64,000 nt of DNA, from NCBI RefSeq assembly GCF_003675325.1, contig NZ_CP033073.1:7006001-7070000 (forward strand), given 5' to 3'. Position 1 is the stretch's first letter. Every line of letters begins with the position of its first letter. The DNA comes from Streptomyces dangxiongensis (GTDB taxonomy: Bacteria > Actinomycetota > Actinomycetes > Streptomycetales > Streptomycetaceae). The position numbers were made by a program, and so were the translations under genes. The notes beneath the pieces were generated by a model. That model made no database searches and was not told the origin of the DNA. It saw only the letters and a list, made by a program, of their open reading frames with translations. This document shows positions 11,284-49,176 of this stretch, piece after piece.

Positions 11284-11336
11284 ACCCCGCCCAGCGCCGC
11301 ACCCGCGCCCCCGGAGCAGAGACCCGGCCGAGCCGC

Positions 11337-13781
11337 TCACGGCAGGTCCGGCAGGTCCTCCCCGAACAGCAGCGTCAGATCGTCGGTGGTCGGGTCGGCG
11401 AGCTGGGCGACCCGGCTCGCATGCCGCTCCACCATCGCCTCGAACGTCTGCCGGGCGGTACGGCCGTTGCCGAACGCGGGCCCCTTCGGAATCGCGGTGA
11501 AGTACTTCAGCAGGGCCTCGCAGGCACCCGGGGCCAGCCGGTACTCGTGCTCGTCCGCCTGCTGCTCAACGATCCGCAGCAGCTCCTCGGGGCCGTAGTC
11601 GCCGAAGGTGATGGTGCGGGAGAAGCGGGAAGCCACACCGGGGTTGACGGAGAGGAAGCGCTCCATCTCCGCGGTGTACCCAGCGACGATCACCACCACC
11701 GCGTCCCGCTGGTCCTCCATCAGCTTCACCAGCGTGTCGATGGCCTCCTTGCCGAAGTCCCGCCCGGCGTCCTGCGGGGACAGCGCGTACGCCTCGTCGA
11801 TGAACAGCACCCCGCCGCGCGCCCGCTGGAACGCCTCCTGGGTGCGGATCGCCGTGGAACCGATGTGCTCCCCGACCAGGTCGACCCGGGACACCTCGAC
11901 CAGATGGCCCTTCTCCAGCACACCGAGGGAGGCGAGGATCTCGCCGTAGAGCCGGGCGACGGTCGTCTTGCCGGTACCGGGGGAGCCCGTGAAGACCAGG
12001 TGGCGCTTGACGGAAGCCGCCTTCAGACCGGCCCGCTGCCGGCGCCGGCCCACCTCGATCATGTCGGTCAGCGCGCGCACCTCGCGCTTGACGCTCTCCA
12101 GACCCACCAGCGCGTCGAGTTCCCCGAGCACGTCCTTCGACGAACGCTGCGGCGGCTCAGGCTCCGGTTGCCCGACGGCGACGGGCGGCTCCCGCTCCGC
12201 GGTCTGCTGCCCGGGGATCGCGCCCAGCAGACCGGTGCCCTGCGGCACCGTCTGCCCGGCCGCCTCACGGGGCGCGGGCGGCCGTGGGCCCCCGCTCTCG
12301 TCGCTGGTGCAGTCCTCCACCACCGGTCCCGTGCCGGGCCCCGCGTCCGGGCCGCCGTCGGCGAACTCGTACCCACCGCGGGCGCACCGTTCCGTACGGC
12401 ATCTGCGCAGCGTCGTACGGCAGCCGTCGAGCACATGGAAGCCGTACCCGCCGCTGCCGCTGACCCGGCAGTTCAGGAAGTTGCCCCGGCCGCCCGCGGA
12501 CACGTAGAAACCGGCCTCCGAGGGGGAGCCGACCGTGCAGCGCTCGATGGTCGGGTCCGCGCCCTTGGTGACGATCACACCCGTCTGGGTGCCGTCCAGG
12601 CTGCAGTTGTTGAGCGTGCCGCCGCTGCCGTGGTCGCGGAACCAGGCACCGGTGGCCGCGTCCCGGATCCGGCAGTCGTCCAGTTGCGCGGTCGCCCCGT
12701 CGCTCACCGAGACGGCCGTGTTGCGCACCTGGGACAGGTCGCTGTCCACGACGTCCGCGCGGGAACCGCGGTCCAGCACGAACAGCGCGTCCGGCACGTC
12801 GTGCACCCGGCAGGAGTCGAGGACGGCGGTGGCGCCGTCGCTCACCCACACCGCCGGGTAGTCACCGGTGCTGTCGAAGATCTCGCACTGGTTGGCGTCC
12901 ACCCGGGTCCCGGGATCCCACACCGACAGGCCGTTGCGCCCGAACTGACGGACCGTCGTCCTGGTCAGGGTGAGCACCGAGCGGGAGCGCAGGTCGACCG
13001 CGTTCTCCGGGATGTCGTGGATGCGGCAGTCGGCGAGCGTGAGCACCGCGTCCGTGTCCAGGGTGATGCCGTCGCCGGTGGTGCGGTGCACATCGCAGTC
13101 GGTCAGGTGCGCGGTGGCCCGCTCGGTGACCTGCACCCCGGAGCCGCGCACCTCGTAGACCTCGCAACCCACCGCCTCCAGCGCGGAGTTCTCGCCGGTC
13201 ACGGTCAGACCGGTGCCGGAGGCGTGGTGCACGCGGCAGCGCTCCAGCCGCGGATGCGCTCCGCCGCGGACCGCCACGCCCGCCTGTCCTGCCGCGACGA
13301 CCTCGCACTCCTCGAACACGCCGCTGCCGCCGTCGAGCACGGTGATACCGATGCCGGCCGGGTTGTCGACGGTGCAGCGGCGCACGGTCGGGCGGGCACC
13401 GCCGCGCACCTCGATGCCGGCGGCCGACCGGGTGACGACGCGCACGTCCATCAGCTCGGGCGTGCCCTCCTCGACCAGCACCGCGGGCGCCGCCGCGTCC
13501 TGGCCCTCCACGTGCAGGTCCTGCACCACGGCCGAGGCCCGCACGGTGAGCGGCACCCCGTCCACCGGCGCGAGCCGCACCGAACCGGAGGACCCCTCGG
13601 GCCCACGGAGCGTCACCGCCCGCTCGATGACGAGGTTCTCCCGGTACGTGCCGGGAGCGACGGTGAGGACGTCGCCGTCGGCGGCGGCCTCCAGGGCGGC
13701 GGCGAGCGACGCGTACTCACCCGTGCGGCGCCGCCACCGCGAAGTACCGGTGTGCGTCACCTGGACCGTGCCCTGTGCCAT
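11337..13781 (-). CDS. Right-handed beta-helix / AAA+ (CbxX/CfqX-type) fusion protein
   Basis: About 814 residues. Residues 25-490 are a run of about 20 imperfect 20-25-residue beta-helix (PbH1) repeats, each with a C-x-V/I-H/R turn. A Pro/Glu-rich linker (490-550) joins an AAA+ ATPase with Walker A GSPGTGKTT (about 599-607) and Walker B/acidic VLFIDEA (about 658-664). The ATPase half belongs to the CbxX/CfqX group that includes EccA of type VII secretion and rubisco-activase CbbX, so it likely remodels a protein partner selected by the helix. I choose the ATG at 13781; an upstream in-frame start would add 13 residues. It is single-gene. Confidence 0.85.
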   Translation of the reverse strand: MAQGTVQVTHTGTSRWRRRTGEYASLAAALEAAADGDVLTVAPGTYRENLVIERAVTLRGPEGSSGSVRLAPVDGVPLTVRASAVVQDLHVEGQDAAAPAVLVEEGTPELMDVRVVTRSAAGIEVRGGARPTVRRCTVDNPAGIGITVLDGGSGVFEECEVVAAGQAGVAVRGGAHPRLERCRVHHASGTGLTVTGENSALEAVGCEVYEVRGSGVQVTERATAHLTDCDVHRTTGDGITLDTDAVLTLADCRIHDIPENAVDLRSRSVLTLTRTTVRQFGRNGLSVWDPGTRVDANQCEIFDSTGDYPAVWVSDGATAVLDSCRVHDVPDALFVLDRGSRADVVDSDLSQVRNTAVSVSDGATAQLDDCRIRDAATGAWFRDHGSGGTLNNCSLDGTQTGVIVTKGADPTIERCTVGSPSEAGFYVSAGGRGNFLNCRVSGSGGYGFHVLDGCRTTLRRCRTERCARGGYEFADGGPDAGPGTGPVVEDCTSDESGGPRPPAPREAAGQTVPQGTGLLGAIPGQQTAEREPPVAVGQPEPEPPQRSSKDVLGELDALVGLESVKREVRALTDMIEVGRRRQRAGLKAASVKRHLVFTGSPGTGKTTVARLYGEILASLGVLEKGHLVEVSRVDLVGEHIGSTAIRTQEAFQRARGGVLFIDEAYALSPQDAGRDFGKEAIDTLVKLMEDQRDAVVVIVAGYTAEMERFLSVNPGVASRFSRTITFGDYGPEELLRIVEQQADEHEYRLAPGACEALLKYFTAIPKGPAFGNGRTARQTFEAMVERHASRVAQLADPTTDDLTLLFGEDLPDLP

Positions 13782-34174: not shown

Positions 34175-34555
34175 AGCCGGACCGCGGCGCTGGTTACCGG
34201 CGGCTGCCGCTCGGCGACCGACGCCTCGACGCGGCCCAGAGCGCACTGTCGAGTACCTGCTGGCGACGCGGCTGGAGCGCCTGCGTCGCATTACGTTCGG
34301 CGTGCAATCTCCTTGAACGGGTCGTCGTGGCTGACGCGCGGCTGTCCACGCCGGTGGTGAACCGGACATGGTCTCGGCCCAGGGGGTGGCCTCGCCGCTC
34401 AGCAGAGGATCTTCGGCTCACACCGATGCCCGGGGGGTGGCTTACGCTGACTGACGCCTGCCAGCATGATGCGGGCAGGTCACCGGCGTGGGGGGAAGAG
34501 CACTCAGCGCGCGGAATCGTGAAGATGCGAATGCGGCAGCGGGAGGATGGTCGGT
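34175..34555. other. 380-bp gap without a recognisable gene
   Basis: No frame looks coding. The last bases hold GGGAGG (34541-34546), the probable ribosome site of the following MarR gene. Confidence 0.4.
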
Positions 34556-34978
34556 TTGAGCAGGTCCGAGGGGGGCACCGCCGAGGTAGCGGAGGGGCTT
34601 GTCCGGCTGTGGGAGTGCATCGACCGCCGTGTCGCGCCTGCTGTTCCGCCCGCTCAGTTCCGCGTGCTGAGGGTGGTGGGCACCGCGGGTGTCGTGACGT
34701 CCACGAAGATCGCTGAGGCGACCGGCGCGATGCCGTCGTCGATCAGCCGGCTGATCGGCCGGCTGCAGGGTGCTGGCCTGCTGGTGAAAGAGGAGAACTG
34801 CAGCAACCGTCGGGAAACCTTGATCAGGCTGACCGCTGACGGGCAGGAGCTGTTGCGTGAGGTGGAGGAGCAGCGTCTGGATGAGCTTCGCCTGTTGCTG
34901 AAGCCGCTGAGTCTGCGCGGTCGGCAGGCTTTGCTGCGGGGCCTGATCTCGTTCAACCAGTCGCCCCTCTGGGACTGA
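34556..34978 (+). CDS. MarR-family transcriptional regulator (plus strand)
   Basis: About 140 residues with the MarR winged helix: recognition region AEATGAMPSSISRLIGRLQGAG (about 59-80) and a wing SNRRETLIRLTADGQ. It probably represses a nearby gene and is released by a small phenolic or other ligand. I choose TTG 34556 because GGGAGG (34541-34546) is 9 nt upstream; the in-frame ATG at 34547 directly abuts that site and would leave no spacing. It converges on a second MarR gene across a 220-bp gap. Confidence 0.78.
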   Translation: MSRSEGGTAEVAEGLVRLWECIDRRVAPAVPPAQFRVLRVVGTAGVVTSTKIAEATGAMPSSISRLIGRLQGAGLLVKEENCSNRRETLIRLTADGQELLREVEEQRLDELRLLLKPLSLRGRQALLRGLISFNQSPLWD

Positions 34979-35198: not shown

Positions 35199-35645
35199 TC
35201 ATCGGGCGACGGTGGTGGCAGCCGCGAGAGCGGTCAGGCCGTCGAGCAGTGCAGCGCGGTCGTGGCTGGGCAGGGCTTCGATGATCGGTGTCAGGGCTTG
35301 GCGGCGCTCGCTTCGCAGTCTCTCCAGGTAGGTGCGTCCGGAGCCGGTGAGCTGCACCTGGACCTCCCGCCTGTTGTGCGGGTTGGGGACGCGCTCGAGG
35401 AAGCCGGCCGCCTCGATGCGGTCGCAGAGCTGGCTGACGGCCGCAGAGGTGATCGACAGTGTCCGCGCGAGAGTGCGTAGGTTCGTGCCGTCGTGGTCTT
35501 CGAGCGTGTACAGCACGCGCAACTGCGAGGGCGACAGGGGCGCGATGTTCACCTCGGGCGTGTTCGCCCACCTCTCCTCCATCAGGTCAAGAGCATGGCC
35601 GGCAGCCTCGGCGGCTTGCGTGGGCAGGGCGGAATGGCGGGTCAC
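35199..35645 (-). CDS. MarR-family transcriptional regulator (minus strand)
   Basis: A 148-residue MarR protein with winged helix LARTLSITSAAVSQLCDRIEAAG (about 60-82) and wing NPHNRREVQVQLTGSG. It starts with GTG at 35645 and is divergent from the first PP2C phosphatase gene, with which it shares a gap of about 145 bp. It is therefore the best candidate to control the signalling cluster to its right. In Streptomyces, MarR genes divergent from a SpoIIE-type phosphatase are common. Confidence 0.85.
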   Translation of the reverse strand: MTRHSALPTQAAEAAGHALDLMEERWANTPEVNIAPLSPSQLRVLYTLEDHDGTNLRTLARTLSITSAAVSQLCDRIEAAGFLERVPNPHNRREVQVQLTGSGRTYLERLRSERRQALTPIIEALPSHDRAALLDGLTALAAATTVAR

Positions 35646-35789
35646 GTGCTCACTGTGTCATCCCGCGGTCGGCCTGTCTGCCATGGACCGCCCTGACGCT
35701 GGGGTCCTGCACGAGTCATCCGCGTGTTCATGTGCGTTTCCTCCAGCCGTACCGTGCGGCTGGCGATCTCTGAAGGCGGTCCACCGAAG

Positions 35790-36950
35790 GTGAAAACTCT
35801 CCTCGCCCTGGAGCGGGCTCTGCAAAGAGCGGCCCCGCACCAGTTGCTGGACACAGTGCGTGACCTGCTGGCCCGGCACTGGGACGCGACGCTGGTGGAG
35901 CTGTTGCTGGCGGACTACGGGATGACCGTGTTGCAGCCGGTGACGATCCCGCCCTACACCGGGAAGCCGATCTCCGCGTTCACCGGGGAGCTGGGGCGCC
36001 TGTTCGGCTCGCAGGACTCCACGGTCCGCGAAGTCGCGCCGGGGCGGGTGGAGGCGCTGGTGCCGGTGACGGTGCGCGGTGACCGGCTGGGCGTTCTGCG
36101 CGTGACGCTGCCGGCCGAGGCGTGCGATGTGGAGCAGTTGGAGGTGGTCGCGGGCGTCCTGGGGCGGGAGCTGGTGCTGTCCGAGCGGGATACCGACCTG
36201 TATTTGCAGGCGCGCCGTACCCGGCGGCTGACGCTGGCGGCCGAATTGCAGTGGCAACTGCTGCCGGCCCGGGCCTATGCGCGTCCCGAGTACGAGCTGG
36301 GCGCCCAGCTTGAACCGGCCTACAACATCCACGGGGACAACTTCGACTGGTGTGCCGAGGCCGACTACCTGACGCTCACGGTGACCAACGGCATGGGTGA
36401 GGGCATCGATGCCGCTCTGCTGACGAATCTGGCGGTCAACGCCCTGCGCAACGCGCGCCGGGGCGGCACCGCGCTGGCAGGGCAGGCCGCGCTCACGGAC
36501 CAGGCCATCTACGCCCACTATCGAGGGCGTATGCACGTCTCCACGCTGCTGCTGCGCTTTGAGCTCTCCACCGGGCGGGTGGAGGTGGTGGACGCCGGTT
36601 CCCCCCAGGCCTGGCTGCTGCGCGACGGCACGGTCTCGCTGGTGCCCTTCGATGCCCAGTTGCCCTTGGGCATGGTGGACGAGACGCCCTACGACGTCCA
36701 GCACATGGACGTGGTGCGCGGGGACCGGCTGCTGTTCGTCAGCGACGGCATCTACGACGCCGCTTCGGCGGAGGGTGAGAAGTACGGCGAACGCGCCCTG
36801 GCGAGAGCCCTGACCGACACCCGGCTGCTGCCCGCAGCCCAGGTCCCCGCCGCGGTGCTGCGCGCGCTCGAGGACTGGAGAGGCACTCCGGCGCCGGCCG
36901 ATGACGCGATGGTGGTGTGCCTGGACTGGCAGGGCGCGGAAGCGGAGTGA
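35790..36950 (+). CDS. SpoIIE/RsbU-type PP2C protein phosphatase (first of three)
   Basis: About 386 residues. The first 170 residues form a GAF-like sensor half (LLALERALQRAAPHQLLDTV opening). A SpoIIE-type PP2C phosphatase follows, with LAAELQWQLLPARAYARP linker helix, YNIHGDNFDW in the place of the G-G-D-F/W-Y-D metal motif, and a C-terminal DDAMVVCLD. In the metal motif the usual GGD is altered to HGDNFDW but the aspartates remain. The GTG at 35790 gives the family-like start; an in-frame ATG lies at 35724. These enzymes usually dephosphorylate anti-anti-sigma factors. Confidence 0.83.
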   Translation: MKTLLALERALQRAAPHQLLDTVRDLLARHWDATLVELLLADYGMTVLQPVTIPPYTGKPISAFTGELGRLFGSQDSTVREVAPGRVEALVPVTVRGDRLGVLRVTLPAEACDVEQLEVVAGVLGRELVLSERDTDLYLQARRTRRLTLAAELQWQLLPARAYARPEYELGAQLEPAYNIHGDNFDWCAEADYLTLTVTNGMGEGIDAALLTNLAVNALRNARRGGTALAGQAALTDQAIYAHYRGRMHVSTLLLRFELSTGRVEVVDAGSPQAWLLRDGTVSLVPFDAQLPLGMVDETPYDVQHMDVVRGDRLLFVSDGIYDAASAEGEKYGERALARALTDTRLLPAAQVPAAVLRALEDWRGTPAPADDAMVVCLDWQGAEAE

Positions 36951-37037
36951 GGGCGGACCCCCGTTGCAACCATTAAGGTGCGACAAGTATTCTCGGCGCG
37001 GAGCCGCCAGCAGGGTGGCGAAGTGGAGGGGATCGTG

Positions 37038-38279
37038 GTGGGGCCCATCAACGCCGTCGGCCGGGCGGCCGACGGCGTGCAGGACCACATCCCGCCTCCC
37101 CCCGCGCCCCGTGAAGAGGCCTTGGCGCACATTCTGCTGGTCGAGGACGATGACGGGGACGCCCTGCTGGTGGAGGAGCTGCTCCACGACGCCTACCCGG
37201 CTACCGAGCTGCGAAGGGCACGCACCCTGGCGGGGGTTAAAGCCATGCTGGACGACGCGCAGTCCCCGCAGTGCGTCCTGCTGGATCTGCATCTTCCCGA
37301 TGCGCGGGGTCTGGATCTGCTGCGCGAGGTCCTTCGTGCGTCACCGCGCGCGGCCGTGGTGGTGCTCACCGGGCTCGCCGAAGAGGGCATGGGCCTGTCC
37401 GCGGTAGCGGCCGGCGCCCAGGACTACCTCGTCAAGGGACTCATCGAGCCCTCCGCTCTGGGCCGGGCGATCCGCTATGCCGTCCTGCGCCGCCAGAGCG
37501 AGCAGGCCGCGGTCGCCATACAGGCCAGCCGACTGCGCGCCGAGGAGAACGCCCGCCTGGAACGCGGGCTGCTGCCCTCCCCTCTGCTGCGATCCGACAC
37601 GGTCCGCATCGTCACCCGTTACGAGTCCGAACGCGCCGACGCCCTCCTGGGCGGTGACTTCTTCGACGCCGTCGAATCGGCGGACGGCAGCGTGCACGCG
37701 CTGATCGGCGATGTCTCGGGGCACGGGCCCGACGAGGCCGCGCTCGGCGTCTGCCTGCGGGTGGCCTGGCGCTCCTTCACCATGGCCGGCGCACGGGGCG
37801 ACGACCTCATGCACCTGATGGAGGAGATCCTGTGCGCCGAGCGCTCCTCGGCCGAGATCTTCGCCACCCTCACGACGCTGACGTTCAGCCCGGACCGGGA
37901 CACGGCGGTCATGGTGCGGGCGGGCCACCCGCCCGCTCTCCTCATCACCGGCGCGGACCGGGTGCAATTGCTGCAGACTCCCGTAGGCCCGGCCCTGGGC
38001 CTGCTGCCCCCGGGGTTGTCCCGCTGGCCGCAGACCGGCATTTCCCTGCCTGACGCCGGAGCCCTCCTTCTGTTCACCGACGGGCTGTTCGAGGGCCGCA
38101 CAGGACCGGCGGGACAGCGCCTGGGCGAGGAAGGCCTGCTTGAGATCGCCCAGCACCACGCGCACCTGCCGGCCGAGCGACTTCTGGACACCCTGATCAC
38201 CCGCACGCAGGCACTGTCGGCCGCCTACGGCGGGCACTTCGACGACCGCGCCGTCGTACACCTGGAATGGAACACGTAA
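37038..38279 (+). CDS. Response regulator-PP2C phosphatase fusion (second of three)
   Basis: About 413 residues. A CheY-like receiver (about 32-150) has acidic pocket VEDDDGD and phospho-acceptor D83 in LLDLHLPD. A helical linker with LERGLLPSPLL joins a SpoIIE/PP2C domain with metal motifs LGGDFFDA and IGDVSGHGPDEAALG, and a terminal DDRAVVHLE. It should be a phosphatase switched by a histidine kinase, most simply the one encoded immediately downstream. GTG 37038 has GGAGGGG 6 nt upstream; GTG 37035 is adjacent. The stop is followed directly by the kinase GTG. Confidence 0.88.
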   Translation: MGPINAVGRAADGVQDHIPPPPAPREEALAHILLVEDDDGDALLVEELLHDAYPATELRRARTLAGVKAMLDDAQSPQCVLLDLHLPDARGLDLLREVLRASPRAAVVVLTGLAEEGMGLSAVAAGAQDYLVKGLIEPSALGRAIRYAVLRRQSEQAAVAIQASRLRAEENARLERGLLPSPLLRSDTVRIVTRYESERADALLGGDFFDAVESADGSVHALIGDVSGHGPDEAALGVCLRVAWRSFTMAGARGDDLMHLMEEILCAERSSAEIFATLTTLTFSPDRDTAVMVRAGHPPALLITGADRVQLLQTPVGPALGLLPPGLSRWPQTGISLPDAGALLLFTDGLFEGRTGPAGQRLGEEGLLEIAQHHAHLPAERLLDTLITRTQALSAAYGGHFDDRAVVHLEWNT

Positions 38280-40007
38280 GTGAGTACCACCGGCCCGCCT
38301 GTCGCCCCGCCGGCCAACGCCTCTGCCGGCACGCCCGAGGGCGTGACGCCGGCCGGCCGCCTGACGGTTCAGGGCTGGGTCCACCTGGCCCTGGCACTGA
38401 TGGGAGCGATTCTGCTCTTGGCCGCGGTCGTCGGCTCGCGTCAGCTTTCACGGACCGCCGAGGTCGCCGACCGGCTCATCAGCCAAGTCCAGCCCGCCCG
38501 AGCAGAGGCCTTCCGCATCCAGACGGCGCTGGTGGACCAGGAATCCGGAGTGCGCGGCTACACGATCACCGGCGACCGGCGATTCCTCAAGCCGTACACC
38601 GACGGCCTCGCGTCCGAGAAGGCACACGCCCGCACCATGAGCGGCCTGCTCGCGCATGACGGGCGGCTGGAGAAGGATCTGCGCACCCTGCGTCGGGCGG
38701 CGGACGACTGGCGTCGCCGTTACGCGACACCGCTGATCACCGGGGCGAACGCGGGACCCGCACGCGCCGGCGAACGGGCGGACATGGAGCAGGGACGCCG
38801 GGCTTTCGACCACCTGCGCACCCTGTTCACCCAGCAGAACGCGCACCTCGAACAGGCCGGAGAGCGGACCGAAGCACAGTTGCAGCAAACCCGTTCTGTC
38901 CGCAACTGGTCATTTGTCGCCATGCTCACCGCCCTGCTGCTCACCGGAGCAGCTCTGGCGGTCATGCTCCACTTCTTCGTCGTCCGGCCACTGCGCCACC
39001 TGCGCGCCGACGCCCGGCGGGTCGCTGACGGTGACTTCGGCCACCGCATCTCCGCCCGCGGCCCCAGCGACCTGCGCTCCGTGGCCTGGGACGTGGAGGA
39101 CATGCGCCTGCGCATCGTGAACGAACTCGCAGCCTCCCGCTCCCAGCAGCAACGCCTGACCCAGCAGGCACAAGACCTGGACACCCAGGCGACCGAGCTG
39201 CGGCGCTCCAACGCCGAACTCGAGCAGTTCGCCTACGTCGCCTCCCACGACCTGCAAGAGCCCCTGCGTAAGGTGGCCTCCTTCTGCCAGCTCCTGGACA
39301 AACGCTACGGCGAGCAGCTCGACGGCCGCGGCAAGCAGTACATCGACTTCGCCGTCGACGGCGCCAAGCGCATGCAGGTACTGATCAATGATCTGCTGAC
39401 CTTCTCGCGGGTCGGCCGGCTCAACGACGCCCGTGAACCCGTCGACCTCGACACCGTCCTGGACAAGGCCCTGGCCAACCTCACCGCGGCCGTGGACGAA
39501 GCGGACGCGCTCATCGAGCGCCCCGAGCGGCTGCCGCACGTCACCGGTGATCCCACCCTGCTGACCATGCTGTGGCAAAACCTGATCGGCAACGCCGTCA
39601 AATTCCGCACCCCCGACCGCGCCGTCGCCGTACACATCACCGTCGCCCGCGACGCCGAAGACAACGCATGGCGTTTCTGCGTCACTGACAACGGCATCGG
39701 CATTCCCGAGGAATTCGCCGACAAAGTCTTCGTCATCTTCCAGCGCCTGCACGGACGCGACGCCTACACCGGTACCGGCATAGGCCTCGCCCTGTGCAAA
39801 AAGATCATCGAGCACCACGGTGGCCGCATCTGGATCGACACCGCCCACAGCGACGGGGCCCGGCTCTGCTTCACGCTGCCCGGACAACCCCAACCCCCCC
39901 CCCGCCCCACGACGAACAGCCGGCAGACCGTGAAGGAGTCCCAGCGTGAGCACCCCGCCCGTCCAGCCCATCGAGGTCCTCCTGGTCGAAGACGACCCCG
40001 GCGATGA
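38280..40007 (+). CDS. CHASE3-HAMP sensor histidine kinase
   Basis: A 575-residue membrane kinase: helix 1 (about 28-50), a periplasmic CHASE3-type helical sensor (55-205, with DQESGVRGYTITGD), helix 2 (about 210-235), HAMP (to about 285), a HisKA box with phospho-acceptor H323 (ASHDLQEPLRKV), then HATPase with N-box at about 434-442 and DNGIGIPEEF. The phytochrome-like DLQEPLRK box typically pairs with small CheY-type receivers, as found next door. It starts at the first base after the preceding stop. A C10 run near its end makes the last 35 residues frame-uncertain. Confidence 0.88.
   Translation: MSTTGPPVAPPANASAGTPEGVTPAGRLTVQGWVHLALALMGAILLLAAVVGSRQLSRTAEVADRLISQVQPARAEAFRIQTALVDQESGVRGYTITGDRRFLKPYTDGLASEKAHARTMSGLLAHDGRLEKDLRTLRRAADDWRRRYATPLITGANAGPARAGERADMEQGRRAFDHLRTLFTQQNAHLEQAGERTEAQLQQTRSVRNWSFVAMLTALLLTGAALAVMLHFFVVRPLRHLRADARRVADGDFGHRISARGPSDLRSVAWDVEDMRLRIVNELAASRSQQQRLTQQAQDLDTQATELRRSNAELEQFAYVASHDLQEPLRKVASFCQLLDKRYGEQLDGRGKQYIDFAVDGAKRMQVLINDLLTFSRVGRLNDAREPVDLDTVLDKALANLTAAVDEADALIERPERLPHVTGDPTLLTMLWQNLIGNAVKFRTPDRAVAVHITVARDAEDNAWRFCVTDNGIGIPEEFADKVFVIFQRLHGRDAYTGTGIGLALCKKIIEHHGGRIWIDTAHSDGARLCFTLPGQPQPPPRPTTNSRQTVKESQREHPARPAHRGPPGRRRPRR
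39894..39903 (+). repeat. C10 homopolymer at the 3' end of the kinase gene
   Basis: Ten consecutive C inside the kinase coding sequence. With the given length the kinase ends at 40007, 62 nt inside the next gene. One C less would stop it near 39934, just before the receiver gene, giving a normal operon junction. Confidence 0.8.
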
Positions 40008-40389
40008 GCTCATGACCCGTGAGGCCTTCGAAGACAACAGGATCGGCAACACCCTGCACGTCGCCCGCGACGGCCAGGAAGCCCTCGACTTCCTCTACCG
40101 CCAGGGCGAGCACACCAGCGCCCCGCGCCCCGACCTGATCCTGCTGGACCTCAACCTGCCCAGATACGACGGCCGGCAAGTCCTCGAACGCATCAAGTCC
40201 GATCCCGACCTCGCCCACATCCCCGTCGTCGTCCTGACCACATCCTCAGCCGAGGAGGACATTCTGCGCAGCTACCGCCTCCACGCCAACGCCTACGTCA
40301 CCAAGCCCGTCGACCTCGACCAGTTCGTCTCCGCCATCCGGCAGATCGACGAATTCTTCGTGACCGTCGTCCGCCTCCCCCGCACCTGA
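39946..40389 (+). CDS. CheY/Rcp1-like single-domain response regulator
   Basis: A 147-residue stand-alone receiver. The acidic pocket is VEDDPGD, the phospho-acceptor is D68 in LLDLNLP, the switch Thr lies in LTTSS, and the conserved Lys is in YVTKPVDLDQF. The long loop YRQGEHTSAPRPDLILLD is typical of cyanobacterial Rcp1-type partners of phytochrome-like kinases, agreeing with the kinase just upstream. With no output domain it must act by protein contact or as a phosphorelay sink. GTG start with AAGGAG upstream. Confidence 0.9.
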   Translation: MSTPPVQPIEVLLVEDDPGDELMTREAFEDNRIGNTLHVARDGQEALDFLYRQGEHTSAPRPDLILLDLNLPRYDGRQVLERIKSDPDLAHIPVVVLTTSSAEEDILRSYRLHANAYVTKPVDLDQFVSAIRQIDEFFVTVVRLPRT

Positions 40390-40535
40390 CCGAGACATCT
40401 CGCGCCTGCGTGTGAGAGCAGCGACGCAGCCTCAGCGGACGGCCACGACGCCGAGATGAAGCTCCCGTCCCATCCCGCCCCACCAGCCAGTCAGTCCGAA
40501 TCAACCCCCCACACACCCACAAGGGGAACGTAAGA

Positions 40536-41090
40536 ATGAGCCACCCGGTCGACGTGGAAATTGACCTGAACCGTGATGTGTTCCTGCGGACGCTGGTGCG
40601 CGAGCTGGCGACGTCGCTGGAATCGGTGATCGGTCTGGAGGAGGCGTCCGGCTACATCAGTCTGGTGGGCCAGGCGGTGGGCAGCCAGATCGACGATATG
40701 TACCTCAAGGCGCTCGGTACCGACACGCTGTCCCGGGAGCAGGTCGCGGAGGCGCTGGTGGACCTCAAGCGGCGCATCAAGGGTGACTTCTACGTCATCG
40801 AACAGGATGACACGAAGATCGTTCTGGGCAACCGTGCCTGTCCGTTCGCGGAGAAGGTCCTGGGCCGTGAGTCGATGTGCATGATGACCTCGAACGTCTT
40901 CGGGACCATCGCCGCCCGCAATCTCGGCTACGCCAGCGTCGAACTGCACGAGACCATCGCCCGCGGCGACGCCGGCTGCCGCGTCGTCGTGAACCTGGTG
41001 CCCGGCGCCGGACCGGCCACCCGACGTGAGTACTTCGGCGACGCAGAGCTACCCTCCGGCGGCCCGGCCAACGGTACGGTACCTGCGTGA
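40536..41090 (+). CDS. Methanogen output domain 1 (MetOD1)-containing protein
   Basis: A 184-residue soluble protein. The C-terminal two thirds carry cysteines in [19 protein letters not shown] and GDAGCRVVV, the pattern of the methanogen output domain 1, which is thought to bind a ligand or metal through these cysteines. The N-terminal helices probably dimerise. Here it stands as a separate protein and overlaps the third phosphatase gene by 4 nt (GTGA), so the two should act together, the MetOD1 protein perhaps as a sensor of redox or metal state. Ribosome site AAGGGGA precedes the ATG. Confidence 0.78.
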
Positions 41091-42664
41091 ACACCGGCCT
41101 GTTCGAGGCCATCACCCATACCCTGCCCCACCCCGTCATCCTGTGCGCGGGGGACGGCACGATCCTGGCAGCCAACCCCGCCGCCACCGCCTCGATTCCT
41201 CAACTGTGCGCGGGCGCGAGCCTGTACGCCCTGATCCAGGATGACGCCGGCGTCCTGCGCACGCACCTGGGCAACTGGCTGCGCAGCGGCAGCCCGCTGC
41301 CGGGAGCGCTCGTCCTCAAGGACAGCGACGGCAGCCCGGTGCGTTTTCGCTGCCGCGGTGTGCGTGCCACCTGGTGGCAGGGTCCCGGGACGGTGGTGCA
41401 ACTGAGCCTGCGCCGTCTCGACCAGTCCGACCGGTTCGCTGTCCTCAGCCAGCAGGTCAGCGCGCTCAACCGGGAAATCGCCATCCGGCGCACCGCGGAA
41501 ACACAGCGTGAGGAACTGCTGCTCGCCGAGCAGGCCGCCCGCGCCCGTCTGCAACGCCTGTATCGGCTGACCGCGGCGCTGGCATCAGCCGCGACGCTCG
41601 CCCAGGTCGCCGAGGCCGTGGCGACCACCGCCGCACGGGTCCTCGACGTCGACCATGTGACCTTGCATCTGCACTCCCAGCGCCTGGTGCCCCCGCTGGA
41701 ACCCGGTGAGGAACTGCGAGCCCTCACCGACATCACCTGGAACGACCTCGACCAGCCTGAAGACAGCACCGCCCCTGCCGCCACGGGGACGGCACTGATC
41801 ACGCTGGAAGCCGACAGCGTCGTCCTGGGCGCCCTGGCCGTGCGTCCGGGAGCGGCCGGAATGCCCGAAGCCGAGCATCTGGCCGCGGTGGCCATGCAGA
41901 TCGCCCAGGCAGTGCACCGCGCCGGGCTGTACGAGCACGAACACCGTGTCGCCGAACGCCTCCAGCTCAGCCTCCTGCCCCGACTGCCGGACATCGCCGG
42001 TCTGGAGGTGGCCACCTGCTATGCGCCCGGCAGCGACATGGTCATGGTCGGCGGCGACTGGTACGACCTCTACGACCTCGACGAGGACCACATCGGTCTG
42101 TCGATCGGTGACGTCGCCGGCCACGGCCTGCCCCAGGCAGCCGTCATGGCCCAGATCATCGCCGCCCTGCGCGGGATCGTCCTGCGCTGCGGCACCCACC
42201 CGGAAGCGGTACTCCGCGAGCTCAACGAGTACCTGCACCTCTACCACCGCAGCCAGATGGCGACCGCCGCCTACCTGCTCTACCACCGGCCCACCCGCAC
42301 CCTGACCTACGTCAAGGCCGGACATCCCCCGCCGCTCGTGGTACACCCCGACGGCTCCAGCCGCTACCTCGACGGCCCCATCTCCCCGCCCGTGGGACCC
42401 GTCCCCGGCGCCCGCTACCGCCAGAGCGAAACCAGCCTGGCCGAGGGCGAGGCCGTCCTGCTCTACACCGACGGCCTGATCGAACGCCGCAGGGAACCCC
42501 TGGACACCGGTCTTGAGCGCCTTACCGAGACAGCCCGCCGGGGCGCCGGCCTGAACGTGCACCGCCTGTGCGAGCTGTTCCTCGACCACCAGCCAGGCGC
42601 CGACTACACGGACGACCGCGCCCTGCTCCTCATCCGACCGGACTCGCCTCCGCCCATCCCGTGA
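41087..42664 (+). CDS. PAS-GAF-PP2C (SpoIIE-type) phosphatase (third of three)
   Basis: A 525-residue cytoplasmic phosphatase. A PAS-like domain (1-110, starting [19 protein letters not shown]), a coiled coil (115-160), a GAF domain (about 160-285) and a SpoIIE/PP2C domain (300-518) are visible, the last with [10 protein letters not shown] and [13 protein letters not shown] metal motifs, KAGHPPP, and a terminal DDRALLLI. All metal-binding aspartates are present, so it should be active. It is translationally coupled to the MetOD1 gene. No anti-sigma kinase or STAS protein is in the cluster. Confidence 0.88.
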
Positions 42665-42921: not shown

Positions 42922-44175
42922 TCAGGTGGTCGGGCTGCCCGCGACCCACTCGCTCCACGACATGTTCCAGTCGCTGAGGCCGTTGTCCGGGGCCAACGTG
43001 GTCTTGTCCTCGGAGTTCTTGAGGATCACGAGGTCACCGATCATCGAGTGGTCGAAGAACCACGCGGCGGGCTGCCTGCCGTCGCCGCCGCCCCTGACGT
43101 CCTTCAGGCCTACGCAGCCGTGGCTGGTGTTGACCTTGCCGAAGACCGAGTCGGTACCCCAGTAGTTGCCGTGGATGAACGTGCCCGAGTCGGTAAGGCG
43201 CATGGCGTGCGGTACGGCCTTGATGTCGTACGAGGGCTTGCCGTCCTTCTCCGTGAGGCCGACGCTCGCACCGTTCATATGGATCTGCCTGAACTTCTCG
43301 GAGATCACCATCTGACCGTTGTACGTCGGGTGTTCGGGGCTGCCTGACGAGATCGGGATGGTCTTGATCGTCTTGCCGTCCCGGACGACGGTCATCTGCT
43401 TCGTCTTCGCGTCCACGGTGCTGATCTGGCTCCGGCCGATCCTGAACGTGACCGTCTTCCGGATGCCGTGGCGGTTGAGCGTGACGGTGACGGTGGAGCC
43501 GGGCTTCCAGTAGCTCTCGGGGCGGAAGTCCAAGCGGTGGTCGTTGAACCAGTGACCGACGACCCGCTGGCCGCTGCTGGACCTGACCTGGATCTCCGCC
43601 TCCACGGCGGCCTTGTCGCTGATCGCCTTGCCGAAGTCGACCGTCACCGGCATGCCCACGCCGACGGTCGAGCCGTCCTCGGGGGAGACGTGCCCTATGA
43701 AGTCGTTGGCCGGGGAGACCGTGGTGATCGTGGCGTTACCGGTGGCGGAGCGGCCCTTGGCGTCCTCGGCCTCTGCGGCGATCTGATACTTGGTGGCACG
43801 CCCCAGCCGGCCGTGCGGCTTCCAGGAGGTGCCGTCCGCGGACAGAGTGCCCGGGATCTCGGCACCGGTCGCGACGGCGGTCATGGTCACCTTGGTGAGG
43901 TTGCCGTTGCTGACGGTGACACCGACCGGGCCGTTGATCCCGACGTTGTGGGCACCTTGCCCGGGCGTGATCTCTATGCGGGCGTCCGAGGCTTCCTGGG
44001 CGCCCGCCTGATTCACCCGCGCCTGCGTCTTCGGGGGGGTCCCGGCATCGTTGCCGCTGGTGGCAGCGTTGCTTGTACCGCCGAGGGCCGTGACCGCGAG
44101 TACGCCGCCGAGTACGCCGGCCGTGGCCACCAGCCCGGTGCGTCGTTTGTAGAGCGTGATCAAAGGCTTCTCCAT
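42922..44175 (-). CDS. L,D-transpeptidase (YkuD) with Ig-like domains
   Basis: About 417 residues. An N-terminal membrane anchor or signal segment (about 12-35) is followed by two Ig-like domains (75-270) and a YkuD catalytic domain. The catalytic motif is present: HGNYWG, then S-H-G-C354-V-G-L. The enzyme makes 3-3 cross-links in peptidoglycan outside the cell and resembles LdtMt2 in layout. I choose ATG 44175 (MEKPLITLYKRR); no strong ribosome site is visible, and a TATAAG on the minus strand (44235-44240) could be its -10 box. An IS3 scrap lies just upstream. Confidence 0.9.
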   Translation of the reverse strand: MEKPLITLYKRRTGLVATAGVLGGVLAVTALGGTSNAATSGNDAGTPPKTQARVNQAGAQEASDARIEITPGQGAHNVGINGPVGVTVSNGNLTKVTMTAVATGAEIPGTLSADGTSWKPHGRLGRATKYQIAAEAEDAKGRSATGNATITTVSPANDFIGHVSPEDGSTVGVGMPVTVDFGKAISDKAAVEAEIQVRSSSGQRVVGHWFNDHRLDFRPESYWKPGSTVTVTLNRHGIRKTVTFRIGRSQISTVDAKTKQMTVVRDGKTIKTIPISSGSPEHPTYNGQMVISEKFRQIHMNGASVGLTEKDGKPSYDIKAVPHAMRLTDSGTFIHGNYWGTDSVFGKVNTSHGCVGLKDVRGGGDGRQPAAWFFDHSMIGDLVILKNSEDKTTLAPDNGLSDWNMSWSEWVAGSPTT

Positions 44176-44429
44176 GCCACTGGTCTTTGCATCGCTGCGC
44201 TGATCGCCGAAGGAGTGCAACCAGCATGAAACCACTTATAGGCACGCCTCTGTCCAGATTTGAGCAAATTGTGGTGAAGGCCACGCATTGTCGAGCGCGT
44301 CGCCGAGGTCGCGGATCTGGAGCTGGGCCTGGGAGCCGATGGGGAGGGCGCTGCCAGGGCAGGGGGCGGCTTCCCGACAGTTGACATACCGGACAGCGAG
44401 CCCGACGGGTCTGCGCCGGCGACACCGCG

Positions 44430-44577
44430 GCTTCCGCGCTCCCGCGGCACCGACTCACGCAGCGTGGCCCGGTTGATGCCCAGGTCGGCGGCGATGCTCT
44501 TGTACGTCGCCCCGGGCGCGGACTCGTACAGAGCCACGGCATCGGCCTTCCTGCGGTACCGGCGGGGGTGAGTGGTC
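44430..44577 (-). pseudogene. IS3-family transposase OrfA fragment
   Basis: On the minus strand about 50 codons encode RRKADAVALYESAPGATYK followed by SIAADLGINRATLR, the N-terminal helix-turn-helix of IS3-type OrfA proteins. It breaks off where the family continues with a Trp-containing helix, and no OrfB is present. It is an insertion-sequence remnant between the L,D-transpeptidase and the DUF347 pair. Confidence 0.65.
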
Positions 44578-44628
44578 CACGGCGGCAGTCAGGATGTGTT
44601 CAGGTGCCCGGTGGCACCCTCGGGCCCC

Positions 44629-45465
44629 ATGACCTATGAAACGTCTGCGAACCAGGTGGTACCCGAGGCCGGCCAGGCGGCCCCTTCGCGGCACCGGCTG
44701 CGCTGGAACAAGGTGCCCGAGGTCACCGTCTACTTCTGGTTGATCAAGGTGCTGTGCACGACGGTCGGCGAGACCGCGGCAGACCTGCTGAACGAGAAGG
44801 CCGGTCTGGGACTGACCGGTGTGTCGGTGCTGATGAGCGCGTTGCTGGCCGTGGTGCTGGTGGTGCAGTTCCGCACGCTCGCCTACCGGGCGGGCGTGTA
44901 CTGGCTCGCCGTGGCGCTGATCAGCGTAGTGGGCACGCTGATCAGCGACAACCTCACCGACAACATGGGTGTGCCGCTGGAGACCAGTACGACCGTCTTC
45001 GCGATCCTCCTCGCGGTCGTCTTCGTGATCTGGTACCGGCGCGAGCGGACGCTGTCCATCCATCACATCGACACCCGCAGCCGCGAGTCCTTCTACTGGC
45101 TGGCGGTCCTGTTCACGTTCGCCCTGGGCACCGCCGCCGGTGACCTGGTCTCCGAGCGTATGAACCTCGGATACTGGTTGTCCGCCGTCCTGTTCGTGGC
45201 GGCCATCGCCGCGGTCGCCATCGCGCACTCCGCGCTGGGCCTGGACGCGGTGTGGAGTTTCTGGATCGCCTACATCCTCACCCGGCCTCTCGGCGCCTCG
45301 ATCGGTGACTACCTCTCCCAGCCCACCGGTGACGGCGGCATCGGCCTGGGCACCGTCGTGACCAGCGTCCTGTTCCTTGCGGTCATCCTCGGCCTGGTCG
45401 TCTACCTCTCCGTCACCCGAAAGGATGTCAACGAACCGGAGCAAGCAAGCGTGCACACAGCCTGA
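44629..45465 (+). CDS. DUF347/COG4705 membrane protein, first of a tandem pair
   Basis: About 278 residues with eight predicted helices in four DUF347 repeats. Each repeat holds a T/S-x-G-x3-D core: CTTVGETAADLL, SVVGTLISDNL, FALGTAAGDLV and TRPLGASIGDYL. The family (COG4705) is often annotated as membrane-anchored protein of unknown function and has been linked to manganese efflux in some bacteria, which I cannot test here. I choose ATG 44629 for a soluble 40-residue N-terminus as in the paralogue downstream. Confidence 0.82.
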   Translation: MTYETSANQVVPEAGQAAPSRHRLRWNKVPEVTVYFWLIKVLCTTVGETAADLLNEKAGLGLTGVSVLMSALLAVVLVVQFRTLAYRAGVYWLAVALISVVGTLISDNLTDNMGVPLETSTTVFAILLAVVFVIWYRRERTLSIHHIDTRSRESFYWLAVLFTFALGTAAGDLVSERMNLGYWLSAVLFVAAIAAVAIAHSALGLDAVWSFWIAYILTRPLGASIGDYLSQPTGDGGIGLGTVVTSVLFLAVILGLVVYLSVTRKDVNEPEQASVHTA

Positions 45466-45482
45466 GCTTCGGGAACAGTGAC

Positions 45483-45504
45483 GTTCAGGAACCGTTCAGG
45501 CCAT
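45483..45504 (+). promoter_or_regulatory. PHO-box-like direct repeat
   Basis: Two adjacent 11-nt units, GTTCAGGAACC and GTTCAGGCCAT, match the spacing and GTTCA core of Streptomyces PhoP boxes, which usually read GTTCACC. They sit 114 bp before the second DUF347 gene. Confidence 0.35.
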
Positions 45505-45617
45505 CTCTGTCAGGGTGGACGGTCCCGGCCGCACCTGACGGCCGGCTCATTCCACAGGGCGCTCGTCACCGTTTCGGGGCGAGCGCTCCGCCGTTCAACC
45601 GGATAGGAGCAGTTCCT

Positions 45618-46484
45618 TTGGAGAAGCAGGAGGTCCTCACCGACCTCGACGTGGCGAGCACGTCGAGTACGACCAAGTCGGTGATGAAGAAGCTGCCCGA
45701 GGTCACCCTGGCATTCTGGATCATGAAGGTCGCCGCGACGACCCTGGGCGAGACGGCGGGCGACCTCTTCGCGCAGACACTGAAGCTCGGCTACTTCCTC
45801 ACCACGATCGCGTTGTTCCTGATCTTCGTGGTGACACTGGTGGTCCAACTGCGGTCGAGCCGCTACAACCCGTTCTTCTACTGGACGGTCATCCTCTCGA
45901 CCAGCATGGCCGGCACCACGATGTCCGACTTCATGAACCGCGACGCCAGCGCCAAGTTCCTCTCGAACGGGGCCAAGTCGCTCGGCTGGGGTCCGCAGGG
46001 GCTCGGCCTGGGCTATCCGACCGGCGCGGCGATCCTGATCTCGATCCTCCTGGCGATCTTCCTGGCCTGGAAGCTGAGCGGGATGACGTTCCAGATCCGC
46101 GACATCGTCACCTTCAGGGGCGAAGCCCTGTTCTGGTCGGCGATCCTGGTCTCCAACACCCTCGGCACGTCGATGGGCGACTTTCTGTCCGACAGCTCCG
46201 GCCTCGGCTACCTGGGCGGCGCCCTCCTCGTGACCGGGGTGCTCGCCGTGCTCGTGGCGCTGATGAAGGTGCCCGCGGTGCCGAACGTGCTGCTGTTCTG
46301 GATCGCCTTCGTCCTCACCCGCCCGCTCGGCGCCACCGCTGGTGACTTTCTCACCAAGCCGGCCGCGAAGGGCGGCCTGGATCTCGGTACGGCGGGCTCG
46401 TCCGCCGTCCTGCTCGCCGTCCTGTTCGGCCTGATGGCCTACGCGCAGGTACAGGAGCGCCGGACCGCAGTGCCCACGTCGTAA
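45618..46484 (+). CDS. DUF347/COG4705 membrane protein, second of a tandem pair
   Basis: A 288-residue paralogue of the preceding gene with the same four-repeat plan: KLPEVTLAFWIMKVAATTLGETAGDLF first, then SMAGTTMSDF, NTLGTSMGDFL and TRPLGATAGDFL. It uses a TTG start at 45618 with AGGAG (45605-45609) at good spacing. The 152-bp gap with a PHO-box-like repeat suggests its own promoter. Two diverged copies side by side may form a heteromeric membrane complex or transporter. Confidence 0.82.
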   Translation: MEKQEVLTDLDVASTSSTTKSVMKKLPEVTLAFWIMKVAATTLGETAGDLFAQTLKLGYFLTTIALFLIFVVTLVVQLRSSRYNPFFYWTVILSTSMAGTTMSDFMNRDASAKFLSNGAKSLGWGPQGLGLGYPTGAAILISILLAIFLAWKLSGMTFQIRDIVTFRGEALFWSAILVSNTLGTSMGDFLSDSSGLGYLGGALLVTGVLAVLVALMKVPAVPNVLLFWIAFVLTRPLGATAGDFLTKPAAKGGLDLGTAGSSAVLLAVLFGLMAYAQVQERRTAVPTS

Positions 46485-47304: not shown

Positions 47305-48000
47305 TCACCCGGACGCTGACGGGCGAGTCACTGCCGCCCCCAGGCTGACCAGCCCGGATTGGTAGGCGATGACCACAAGCTGGGCCCGGTCCCGGGCGGC
47401 CAGCTTGGTCATCGCCCTGTTGACGTGAGTCTTGGCGGTCAGTGGGCTGACGAACAGGCGGGTGGCGATCTCGTCGTTCGACAGTCCCAGCGCGACAAGC
47501 CCCACGACGTCGCGTTCCCGTCGCGTCAGGCATTCCAGCCGCTCGTGCACCGCTGCCGAGCACGGTTCCGGCTGCGACAGAAACCGCCTGATCAGCCCTT
47601 GGGTCGCAGCGGGGGACAGCAGCGCGTCCCCTGCGGCGACGGTGCGGACAGCGTTGAGCAGCTCCTCGGGCAGGGCCCCTTTGCCGAGGAAGCCGCTCGC
47701 GCCCGACCGCAGTGCTTCTGCGACGTATTCGTCGTCCTCGAAGGTGGTCAGGATGAGGACCTTCACCTCCGTGAGGTCCTCGGCCTCGCCGATCAGCCGC
47801 GTGGCGACGAGGCCGTCCATCTCGGGCATGCGGATGTCCATCAGGATCACGTCAGGGTGCTGTGTCCTCGCCAGCTCCACTGCCTCGCGGCCGTTGGACG
47901 CCTCGCCCACGGTCTTCATGTCGTCGGCGGAATCGAACAGCATCCGGAAGGTGCCCCGCAGCAGGGCCTGGTCGTCGGCGAGCAGTACGCGGATCGTCAT
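47305..48000 (-). CDS. NarL/LuxR-family response regulator
   Basis: A 231-residue two-component regulator. The receiver has DD at 9-10, phospho-acceptor D55 in ILMDIRMPEMDG and switch Thr in LILTTFED. The C-terminal LuxR helix-turn-helix reads LTRRERDVVGLVALG ... SPLTAKTHVNRAMTKL (about 160-205). The ATG at 48000 overlaps the kinase stop (ATGA), so it is translated together with the kinase. Its targets may include the broken exporter or the PKS cluster to the right; this is only neighbourhood. Confidence 0.9.
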   Translation of the reverse strand: MTIRVLLADDQALLRGTFRMLFDSADDMKTVGEASNGREAVELARTQHPDVILMDIRMPEMDGLVATRLIGEAEDLTEVKVLILTTFEDDEYVAEALRSGASGFLGKGALPEELLNAVRTVAAGDALLSPAATQGLIRRFLSQPEPCSAAVHERLECLTRRERDVVGLVALGLSNDEIATRLFVSPLTAKTHVNRAMTKLAARDRAQLVVIAYQSGLVSLGAAVTRPSASG

Positions 48001-49176
48001 GCCGGTCTCTCCTCGGCGGTCCGCCCGAGCGGTACTCCCGTTGCCGGACTCGGCCGCAGCGGCAGTTCGGCGGTGACGGTGAAGCCCCCGTCGGGGCGCG
48101 CCGCCGCCTCCAGGTTCCCCCCGACGCTCGCCGCACGCTCGCGCATCCCGATCAGCCCGTGTCCGGTCCCGGGGCGGGGCTCGGGCGGCCGTCGTGCGCG
48201 CCCGTCGTCCTCGACGGTGATCGTCAGCCATTGAGGCCGGTAGTGCAGGTAGAGGCGGGCGTGATCGGCCCCGGCGTGCTTGCGCACATTCGTCAGGGCC
48301 TCCTGCACGATGCGGTACGCGGTCACGTCCACCGCCGGTGCCAGCGGCTCGGCCATGCCATGCCGCGTGTGCCTGACCGACAGGCCGGCACGCTCGAAGG
48401 ACGCCAGCAGCGCCGGCACCTGCGCCAGGCCCGGCATCGGATCCCGCGGCGCCTCCATGTCACCGGACTGCCGCAGGAGGCTCACGGTCACCCGCAGTTC
48501 GTCCAGCGCGGACCGGCTGGTGTCCCGGATACCCTCCAGAGCGGTGACAAGCTGCTCCGGCCGCCGCTCCACCAGATGGACGGCGACACCTGCCTGCGCG
48601 TTGATCAAGGCGATGTGGTGTGCGACGACGTCGTGCAGCTCGCGTGCGATCCGGACCCGCTCGGCCGCCACTCGCTGCCGTGCCTCTTGTTCACGGGTCC
48701 GCTCCGCGTGCTCCGCCCGTTCCTCCACGGCCGCCACGTACGCGCGGCGCGAGCGCACCCCGTCCCCCACGGCGGCGGGCAGAGCCGTCCAGGCCAGCAT
48801 CGCCGCATTGTCCGGGGCCAGCCACGAGCCAGGGGTGAACACGATGGCCGCCCCCACCAGCAGGGCAGCCGAGGCGGAAGCAACGGTCCAGGTGGTTCGC
48901 CGGTCGGTCCGGGCGGCCACGGTGTAGACGGACACCATGACCGGGCTCGTGACCAGCGGGGCTCTCCCGAACCCCCAGTACCTGGAAAGCGGCCCCGCAG
49001 GCGACCGCGGTGACCAGTACGCCGAACGGGTGGCGACGACGCCACAGCAACGCGGAGCAGCCGACCGCCGCCAGCACCACGGCAGGCCAACGGAACGAGA
49101 TCCGGAGCTCGTGCGGGATGACGGAGGCGGCCACGACCGACATCACGAAGAGCACAACCGGCCCCAGCACGTCCAT
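47997..49176 (-). pseudogene. NarL-type sensor histidine kinase, split by a one-base frameshift
   Basis: The gene begins [15 protein letters not shown] at 49176 with membrane helices, changes frame at a five-base run (48972-48976), and continues in another frame through [20 protein letters not shown] to a full HisKA_3 box (RIARELHDVVAHHIAL) and HATPase ending at 47997. Removing one base of the run restores a single frame of about 392 codons. Both halves look well conserved, so this is either a very recent mutation or a sequence error. A shorter kinase could start at 48938 but would lack most membrane helices. Confidence 0.82.

Follow-up and report, generated by a model that had tools for sequence, protein, structure and literature searches.

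The window analysed here, a 64,000-nucleotide stretch of Streptomyces dangxiongensis DNA (contig NZ_CP033073.1, positions 7,006,001 to 7,070,000), carries at positions 35724-42664 a run of six plus-strand genes, which a sequence-only reading had suggested might be a single input hub of partner switching. Our comparison with other genomes leads us to propose, with a probability of about 0.7, that the run holds two independent partner-switch input modules side by side. Module 1 (36978-40389) consists of a receiver-phosphatase (RRPP2C), a histidine kinase (HK) and a lone receiver (RR), and is a conserved Streptomyces module resembling mycobacterial RsfSR. The other (40536-42664) is a pair separate from module 1, in which a MetOD1 protein and the phosphatase PP2Cc would form a two-protein sensing module. 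This MetOD1-PP2Cc pair, a variant of bipartite sensing modules, is the new part, and the MetOD1 protein, listed last in the sequence-only reading, is the unusual part of the cluster.

According to the list of open reading frames and Pfam, the run comprises PP2Ca (35724-36950; SpoIIE-type PP2C with NGMG for DGMG, 128.4 bits), RRPP2C (36978-38279; Response_reg plus SpoIIE, RsfR-like, with the real start possibly downstream of 36978), HK (38280-40007; CHASE3-HAMP-HisKA-HATPase, RsfS-like, CHASE3 PF05227 at 89.4 bits), RR (39946-40389; single-domain receiver, Response_reg 74.9 bits), MetOD1 (40536-41090; 184 residues, proposed stand-alone sensor, PF18546 at 66.7 bits for a curated cut-off of 23.8) and PP2Cc (41087-42664; SpoIIE 155 bits, residues 333-517 in the C-terminal part). 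All of the parts named in the sequence-only reading (three SpoIIE-type phosphatases, one CHASE3 kinase, a receiver-PP2C, a lone receiver and MetOD1) are present. The tight junctions that it described were confirmed, with 27 bp between PP2Ca and RRPP2C, 0 bp between RRPP2C and HK, and overlaps of 62 bp for HK/RR and 4 bp for MetOD1/PP2Cc. Between RR and MetOD1 a gap of 146 bp (40390-40535, plus strand, with AAGGGG read from the sequence ahead of the MetOD1 start), the widest intergenic gap of the run, lies at the boundary of the two modules; a consensus scan of it revealed no promoter-like or terminator-like site. Since the genome (8.16 Mb) holds 54 SpoIIE matches, three SpoIIE domains (PF07228, 128-155 bits each) in a row mean little by themselves; the same genome has 96 HATPase_c_2 and 24 STAS (PF01740) matches and a single MetOD1. 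It is the recurrence of the two units in other genomes, and not this row of domains, which shows that they are real.

For HK, 101 congeners were searched, and close relatives (E<1e-100, counted from the match table) were found in 32 of them, own genome included; the copy in one congener (G017) is fragmented. In the 29 other HK loci, which are the best ones returned as loci rather than every HK match, RRPP2C adjoins HK without exception, and in 27 of them RR is no more than 1.5 kb away from HK, with none in reach in the remaining two. The gene order is RRPP2C-HK-RR in 22 loci, HK-RRPP2C with a divergent RR in five, and lacks RR in two. MetOD1, in turn, is present in 8 of 150 congeners, own genome included. 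In each of the seven others a PP2Cc relative comes directly after it, and no close relative of HK, RR or RRPP2C occurs in the 15-20 kb around MetOD1. When congeners, one plasmid and a genome-contig scan (41 loci, 22 from Streptomyces or Streptantibioticus and 19 from other taxa) are taken together, all 25 Streptomycetaceae loci have PP2Cc directly after MetOD1. In this count, L009, L010, L013, L014 and L015, being the same places as L016, L027, L030, L054 and L024, were counted once, L012 and L019 (97% identical over 5.4 kb) were both counted, and the flanks of L025, L030, L031 and L114 are shorter than those of other loci. PP2Cc is broken in L017 and lies in two overlapping frames in L016. 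The latter is the closest relative found (89% in MetOD1), and its split PP2Cc (10552-12133) reflects either a disruption of the gene or an error in the sequence.

The alternative is one integrated hub, in which the three phosphatases, the kinase, both receivers and MetOD1 all feed a single sigma switch encoded at a distance. The common strand and tight junctions of the six genes speak for such a hub, and convergence on one unlinked switch is conceivable because relatives of both modules carry RsbW/STAS genes (see below). The hub nevertheless appears improbable to us. In the 25 Streptomycetaceae MetOD1 loci the best match to HK scores 70.5 bits and the best match to RR 54.7 bits, whereas module-1 loci reach 479-638 bits for HK and mostly 239-263 bits for RR (46 bits in L159, which is without RR). 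Conversely, no MetOD1 match was detected in the 20 module-1 stretches for which wider flanks (14.6-20 kb) were taken, nor within 1.5 kb of HK in the 29 loci. Five MetOD1 genomes are among the 101 searched for HK, and of these five only the present one has a close HK relative; also, the widest gap of the run falls at the module boundary. A survey for the whole gene order, whose absence from other genomes the sequence-only reading had itself named as a refutation, located it in no other locus examined, and the single hub was rejected on this ground.

The phosphatase of the proposed pair has a layout of a PAS domain (residues ∼3-110), a long helix (115-167), a GAF-like region and the SpoIIE PP2C domain (333-517). 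An AlphaFold2 model of residues 1-319 (predicted local distance difference test score (pLDDT) 80.8; predicted template-modelling score (pTM) 0.49) exhibits PAS-like strand and helix order up to residue 110, the helix 115-167 and a second mixed domain, and Foldseek searches with this model returned PAS domains and PAS-GAF structures. The PAS-GAF sensor previously assigned to this phosphatase thus fits the model and the structural matches, while Pfam yields only a sub-threshold PAS_4 match (E 0.016) for the N-terminus. The metal-ligand Asp motifs of PP2Cc are intact, both in an alignment of the PP2Cs and in one with 3ke6.

Outside Streptomycetaceae, the 19 MetOD1 loci span cyanobacteria, a planctomycete, acidobacteria, proteobacteria, a myxobacterium and other actinobacteria. 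Partner counts for these taxa refer to the 18 loci that were domain-scanned, along with plasmid records; the genes of L055 are split over frames and were seen by tblastn and PAS-profile scoring. The protein encoded after MetOD1, or fused to it, in the 18 loci is a histidine kinase (HisKA, HWE or HisKA_2) in 16, a GGDEF-EAL protein in one and a PP2C in one, the latter in a Nitriliruptorales metagenome-assembled genome (L044). One of the kinases (L041) is a MetOD1-kinase fusion without a Pfam PAS domain. Plasmid records matching MetOD1 number 16, eight of which were examined; five Rhodobacterales plasmids carry MetOD1, then a kinase (labelled a PAS protein on one plasmid), then a receiver. On plasmid pDE of the laboratory strain Rhodobacter sphaeroides 2.4.1 (L115:4950-6999), MetOD1, kinase and receiver are located near heme oxygenase and EAL genes.

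What the MetOD1 partner proteins have in common is an N-terminal domain of ∼145 residues. A PAS profile built from the N-termini of 16 partner kinases, with no PP2C and no Streptomyces sequence among them, was run against the whole own genome and matched PP2Cc over nearly its full length with 98.6 bits (E 1.4e-27); the next match reached 24.6 bits over one third of the profile. In a leave-one-out comparison the 16 kinases scored 77-147 bits, and their other PAS-like stretches at most 14.6 bits except for one of 32.4 bits (L052). Partners outside the profile scored 43-129 bits, with a single exception (L120). When the 26 best first-look candidates per genome were scored in the 150 congeners, matches above 60 bits appeared in the same eight congeners that carry MetOD1, and adjoining it; matches with E<=1e-6 in 15 other congeners stayed at or below 38 bits. 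The N-terminal domain is shared among the partners, and its association with MetOD1 is specific. An extra 65.7-bit match in G013 belongs to a second, decayed PP2Cc (L181:7548-8684), around which no MetOD1 was detected in the 16 kb taken and whose distance to the beginning of its 9.17-Mb contig is ∼108 kb.

The assignment of both modules to partner switching relies on their surroundings in other genomes, for which profiles were built from the RsbW-like and STAS domains of the own genome. Within positions 20-60 kb of the window, these profiles gave no STAS or RsbW match among the six cluster genes, in agreement with the sequence-only reading, and a sole match (E 1e-7) at 48000-49142. RsbW/STAS genes do, however, occur within 2 kb in 14 of 25 MetOD1-PP2Cc loci (one of them, L027, counted by a weak match only), with 28 domains in 98 kb near versus 9 in 331 kb far, and likewise in 14 of 20 module-1 loci (18 domains in 80 kb near versus 7 in 249 kb far). 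Through these relatives, the earlier idea of inputs to partner switching whose RsbW/STAS partners are encoded elsewhere is supported for both modules, though that of one hub is not. On a plasmid of Streptomyces sp. Caat 7-52, the pair lies amid annotated ATP-binding, STAS, RsbA-family and sigma-70 genes, and the ATP-binding protein matches the RsbW profile. Further support comes from a phylum sample in which MetOD1 was detected in 36 of 396 genomes, 32 of them over the cut-off. Among its seven best non-Streptomyces matches are five single proteins from actinobacteria in which an RsbW-type HATPase_c_2 kinase is followed by MetOD1 (L088:982-1965, L089:601-1974, L090:1438-2520, L091:1426-2445 and L092:1411-2580), one MetOD1-PAS-GAF-HisKA protein (L097) and one MetOD1 followed by a histidine kinase (L087). 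CX12C and the third Cys are retained in all seven. These proteins link MetOD1 with partner switching by evidence from outside Streptomyces.

Several observations weigh against this assignment. RsbW/STAS genes are missing within 2 kb in 11 of 25 MetOD1-PP2Cc loci, including the close MetOD1 relatives L018 and L046, and in 6 of 20 module-1 loci, among which are five (L142-L145 and L147) of the six relatives closest in HK identity. Because the loci are related, binomial p-values of the near and far counts do not constitute independent evidence, and because the cluster itself holds no RsbW/STAS gene, the target of PP2Cc is left to inference. As to the pair, the PAS profile gives just 12.6 bits for one MetOD1 partner, the hybrid kinase L120, and does not match the fusions L041 and L097. 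On a Priestia megaterium plasmid, neither a kinase nor a phosphatase is listed as direct neighbour of MetOD1 (L121:5004-5621; 35.5% identity), although a gene for a STAS-domain protein lies upstream and one for a sigma factor downstream. A candidate for a distant RsbW partner was also considered. For the RsbW that adjoins module 1 in L160, the closest counterpart in the own genome lies at C2:7354448 (58%, next 39%); in the 18 kb surrounding it no STAS or module gene was detected, so that it is only a lead and no partner was named.

Module 1 finds its closest parallel in Mycobacterium smegmatis, where RsfS is a CHASE3 kinase, RsfR, a receiver-PP2C, removes phosphate from the STAS protein RsfB, and rsfB and rsbW2 adjoin (PMC10950880); RsbK/RsbY of Bacillus cereus is described in the same paper as similar to RsfSR. 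Here as there, a CHASE3 histidine kinase adjoins a receiver-PP2C phosphatase, and the STAS/RsbW genes which adjoin there lie within 2 kb in the 14 of 20 Streptomyces relatives mentioned above. The third gene, however, encodes a lone receiver here and a receiver-helix-turn-helix protein there, the present cluster is devoid of STAS/RsbW, and the likeness is one of architecture and neighbourhood rather than of tree-based orthology. By this analogy module 1 is to be placed with an already described, RsfSR-like kind of system, and the earlier statement that no system of this composition had been described fails for it. A literature search on CHASE3 and PP2C in Streptomyces turned up one paper, which deals with Bacillus cereus. 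The metal-ligand Asp motifs of RRPP2C are intact in the alignment. As in RsfSR, the membrane CHASE3 kinase would phosphorylate the RRPP2C receiver and thereby set PP2C activity on a phosphorylated STAS protein, while RR may compete for phosphate.

Which signal MetOD1 may perceive is best approached through its cysteines. C102, C115 and C148 are invariant in 26 of 26 aligned sequences, and they align (hhalign 95%, E 9.8e-9) with those of proteins in which a SufR-like helix-turn-helix part precedes a related C-terminal domain. Ten of the weaker MetOD1-like matches were domain-scanned. Of the HTH_20-MetOD1-like regulators matched by the SufR model, 10 of 10 have CX12C, with the third Cys 32 residues on in seven and 34 on in three. 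The iron-sulphur (Fe-S) regulator Rv1460 has C203, C216 and C244, that is, likewise CX12C, with the third Cys 27 on (PMC6034842). MetOD1 thus shares three cysteines with the SufR and ArnR Fe-S regulators (PMC6034842, PMC12343034), from which it differs in having no DNA-binding domain; an Fe-S centre in MetOD1 is a proposal from sequence. Probably, then, MetOD1 binds a metal or Fe-S centre via its three invariant cysteines. The SufR link consists of TIGR02702 matches of 25-39 bits, far below the cut-off of 178.8, and of the one profile comparison, which tempers this assignment, as does the fold: a search with the AlphaFold2 model (pLDDT 82) returned phenol sensors (V4R) and TRAPP subunits as equally good matches and H-NOX with a lower Z-score, so that the fold does not settle the ligand. 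H-NOX proteins are stand-alone sensors encoded beside kinases or cyclases; MetOD1 is a distant fold match to them, with Z below that of the V4R sensors. The MetOD1 profile gave no convincing match to PDB sequences, and MetOD1 gave none to NCBIfam at E 0.001, the SufR model included. Two of the SufR-like HTH_20 plus MetOD1-like regulators (L093:1069-1791 and L101:1075-1848) are encoded directly ahead of class V aminotransferase genes.

V4R phenol sensors hold structural zinc, and MetOD1, instead of sensing redox state or by an Fe-S centre, may be a small-molecule (phenol-like or hydrophobic) or a heme/nitric oxide sensor whose cysteines hold structural zinc. We regard this as a serious possibility, albeit not the favoured one: the fold matches suit it, whereas the CX12C motif with the third Cys 32 on is shared with HTH_20-MetOD1-like regulators matched by the SufR model, and CX12C is also the spacing of C203/C216 in Rv1460 (PMC6034842). 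MetOD1 might instead be an enzyme, a hydrolase or reductase making or removing a ligand of the PAS domain, by analogy with RsbQ, which is an alpha/beta hydrolase (PMC3183031). A related enzymatic activity was indeed suggested for MetOD1 by Galperin et al. in 2018 (PMC5847659), which counts against a sensor; fusion to RsbW and to histidine kinases suits a sensor better, and we consider an enzyme unlikely. Least credible is that MetOD1 is a transcription regulator positioned beside signalling enzymes incidentally. Database names of its relatives such as 'predicted ArsR family transcriptional regulator' would imply such a role, but Pfam detects no DNA-binding domain in MetOD1, which moreover is associated with a single class of PAS domain across several phyla and kinds of output.

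The two-module reading can be put into the following mechanism, in which we infer the cofactor of MetOD1, its contact with PP2Cc, the signal, the direction of control and the STAS target. Two partner-switch input modules would lie head to tail by chance. MetOD1 would be the sensor, probably by means of a metal or Fe-S centre on its three invariant cysteines, and would dock on the special PAS-helix N-terminus of PP2Cc, from which the signal may travel along the long helix to the PP2C domain. The phosphatase would then act on a phosphorylated STAS protein encoded elsewhere, and an RsbW-type kinase would thereby release a sigma factor or other target. In other bacteria, the output driven by this MetOD1-PAS pair might be a histidine kinase or a GGDEF-EAL protein. 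The closest precedent is RsbQ-RsbP, where contact of a partner with the PAS domain sends the signal along a coiled coil to a PP2C, kinase or cyclase (PMC3183031, PMC12143880). There, too, a small partner is encoded beside a PAS-coil protein with a PP2C, histidine kinase or diguanylate cyclase as output (Nadezhdin 2011, PMC3183031), and the MetOD1 module has this type of PAS domain, helical linker and exchangeable output beside the partner. The partner here, however, is MetOD1 (V4R/TRAPP-like, with three cysteines) and not an alpha/beta hydrolase. The MetOD1 module would therefore work like RsbQ-RsbP and yet be no member of that group, because the hydrolase, a defining feature, is missing.

It is tempting to go further, and to consider MetOD1 a stand-alone Fe-S sensor of oxygen, nitric oxide or redox state with a dedicated PAS-helix domain as its target in trans. 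In different phyla, the pair would have been plugged into PP2C phosphatases, histidine kinases and a cyclic-di-GMP enzyme, while in other actinobacteria MetOD1 would have been fused directly to RsbW kinases. Such an input system, widespread and as yet undescribed, would have thousands of members; we offer it tentatively, as a view somewhat short of even odds. One database search yielded at least 8000 MetOD1 relatives of about stand-alone size, and this large family is often labelled as transcriptional regulator or 'methanogen output domain' protein. In methanogens MetOD1 proteins likewise match PF18546 and have three conserved cysteines, but occur alone or linked to a receiver (Galperin et al. 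2018, PMC5847659), whereas here the protein is bacterial, has a reading frame of its own and forms a pair with a PAS protein. Although the name MetOD1 refers to methanogens and to output, the genetic behaviour seen here is that of an input. Should MetOD1 sense in trans, this would account for the input that many actinobacterial, cyanobacterial and proteobacterial kinases and phosphatases receive, and the MetOD1-PAS pair would offer a direct test of one docking domain serving different outputs, an idea found in PMC12143880. No account of the MetOD1-PAS pairing was found in the literature searched on MetOD1 and PF18546, as far as those texts were available, and the accessible part of a paper on PYP/V4R (PMC12826048) does not mention MetOD1.

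PP2Ca stands at the upstream end of the run. The Asp at the DGMG column is a metal ligand in PP2C enzymes; in PP2Ca an Asn (TNGMG) aligns to the Asp of ISDGMG in SpoIIE (5mqh). The Asn occupies this column in 10 of 11 aligned homologues, and the eleventh keeps the Asp and differs in two other motifs. PP2Ca is thus probably a catalytically impaired pseudophosphatase. The phosphatase activity presumed for all three proteins is accordingly doubtful for PP2Ca, while the Asp sets of RRPP2C and PP2Cc are intact. Since the homologues share both the Asn and DAGSP for xAGHP, they represent a candidate conserved pseudophosphatase family near the MarR-family gene MarR2 (35199-35645, minus strand; 148 residues, Pfam MarR 53.4 bits). 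MarR2-like and PP2Ca-like genes co-occur in the same 10 of 20 module-1 stretches, with variable orientation. Two details of the sequence-only reading need to be revised at this end of the cluster: Pfam detects no GAF domain in PP2Ca, for which a GAF-like sensor had been proposed, and MarR2, being on the minus strand, is divergent from PP2Ca and was rejected as a member of the co-directional run.

Farther upstream, a first MarR-family regulator of 143 residues (34547-34978, plus strand; Pfam MarR_2 35.5 bits) flanks the cluster, and a 68% identical homologue adjoins the module in L142. The consensus scan gave one promoter-like site (35037) and one terminator-like site (42694), the latter under the shuffle mean of 2.1. 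Downstream of the cluster, in the stretch 42922-46484, Pfam identifies a minus-strand L,D-transpeptidase (YkuD) gene and a DUF347 gene (44572-45465), which the adjacent gene at 45618-46484 resembles by eye.

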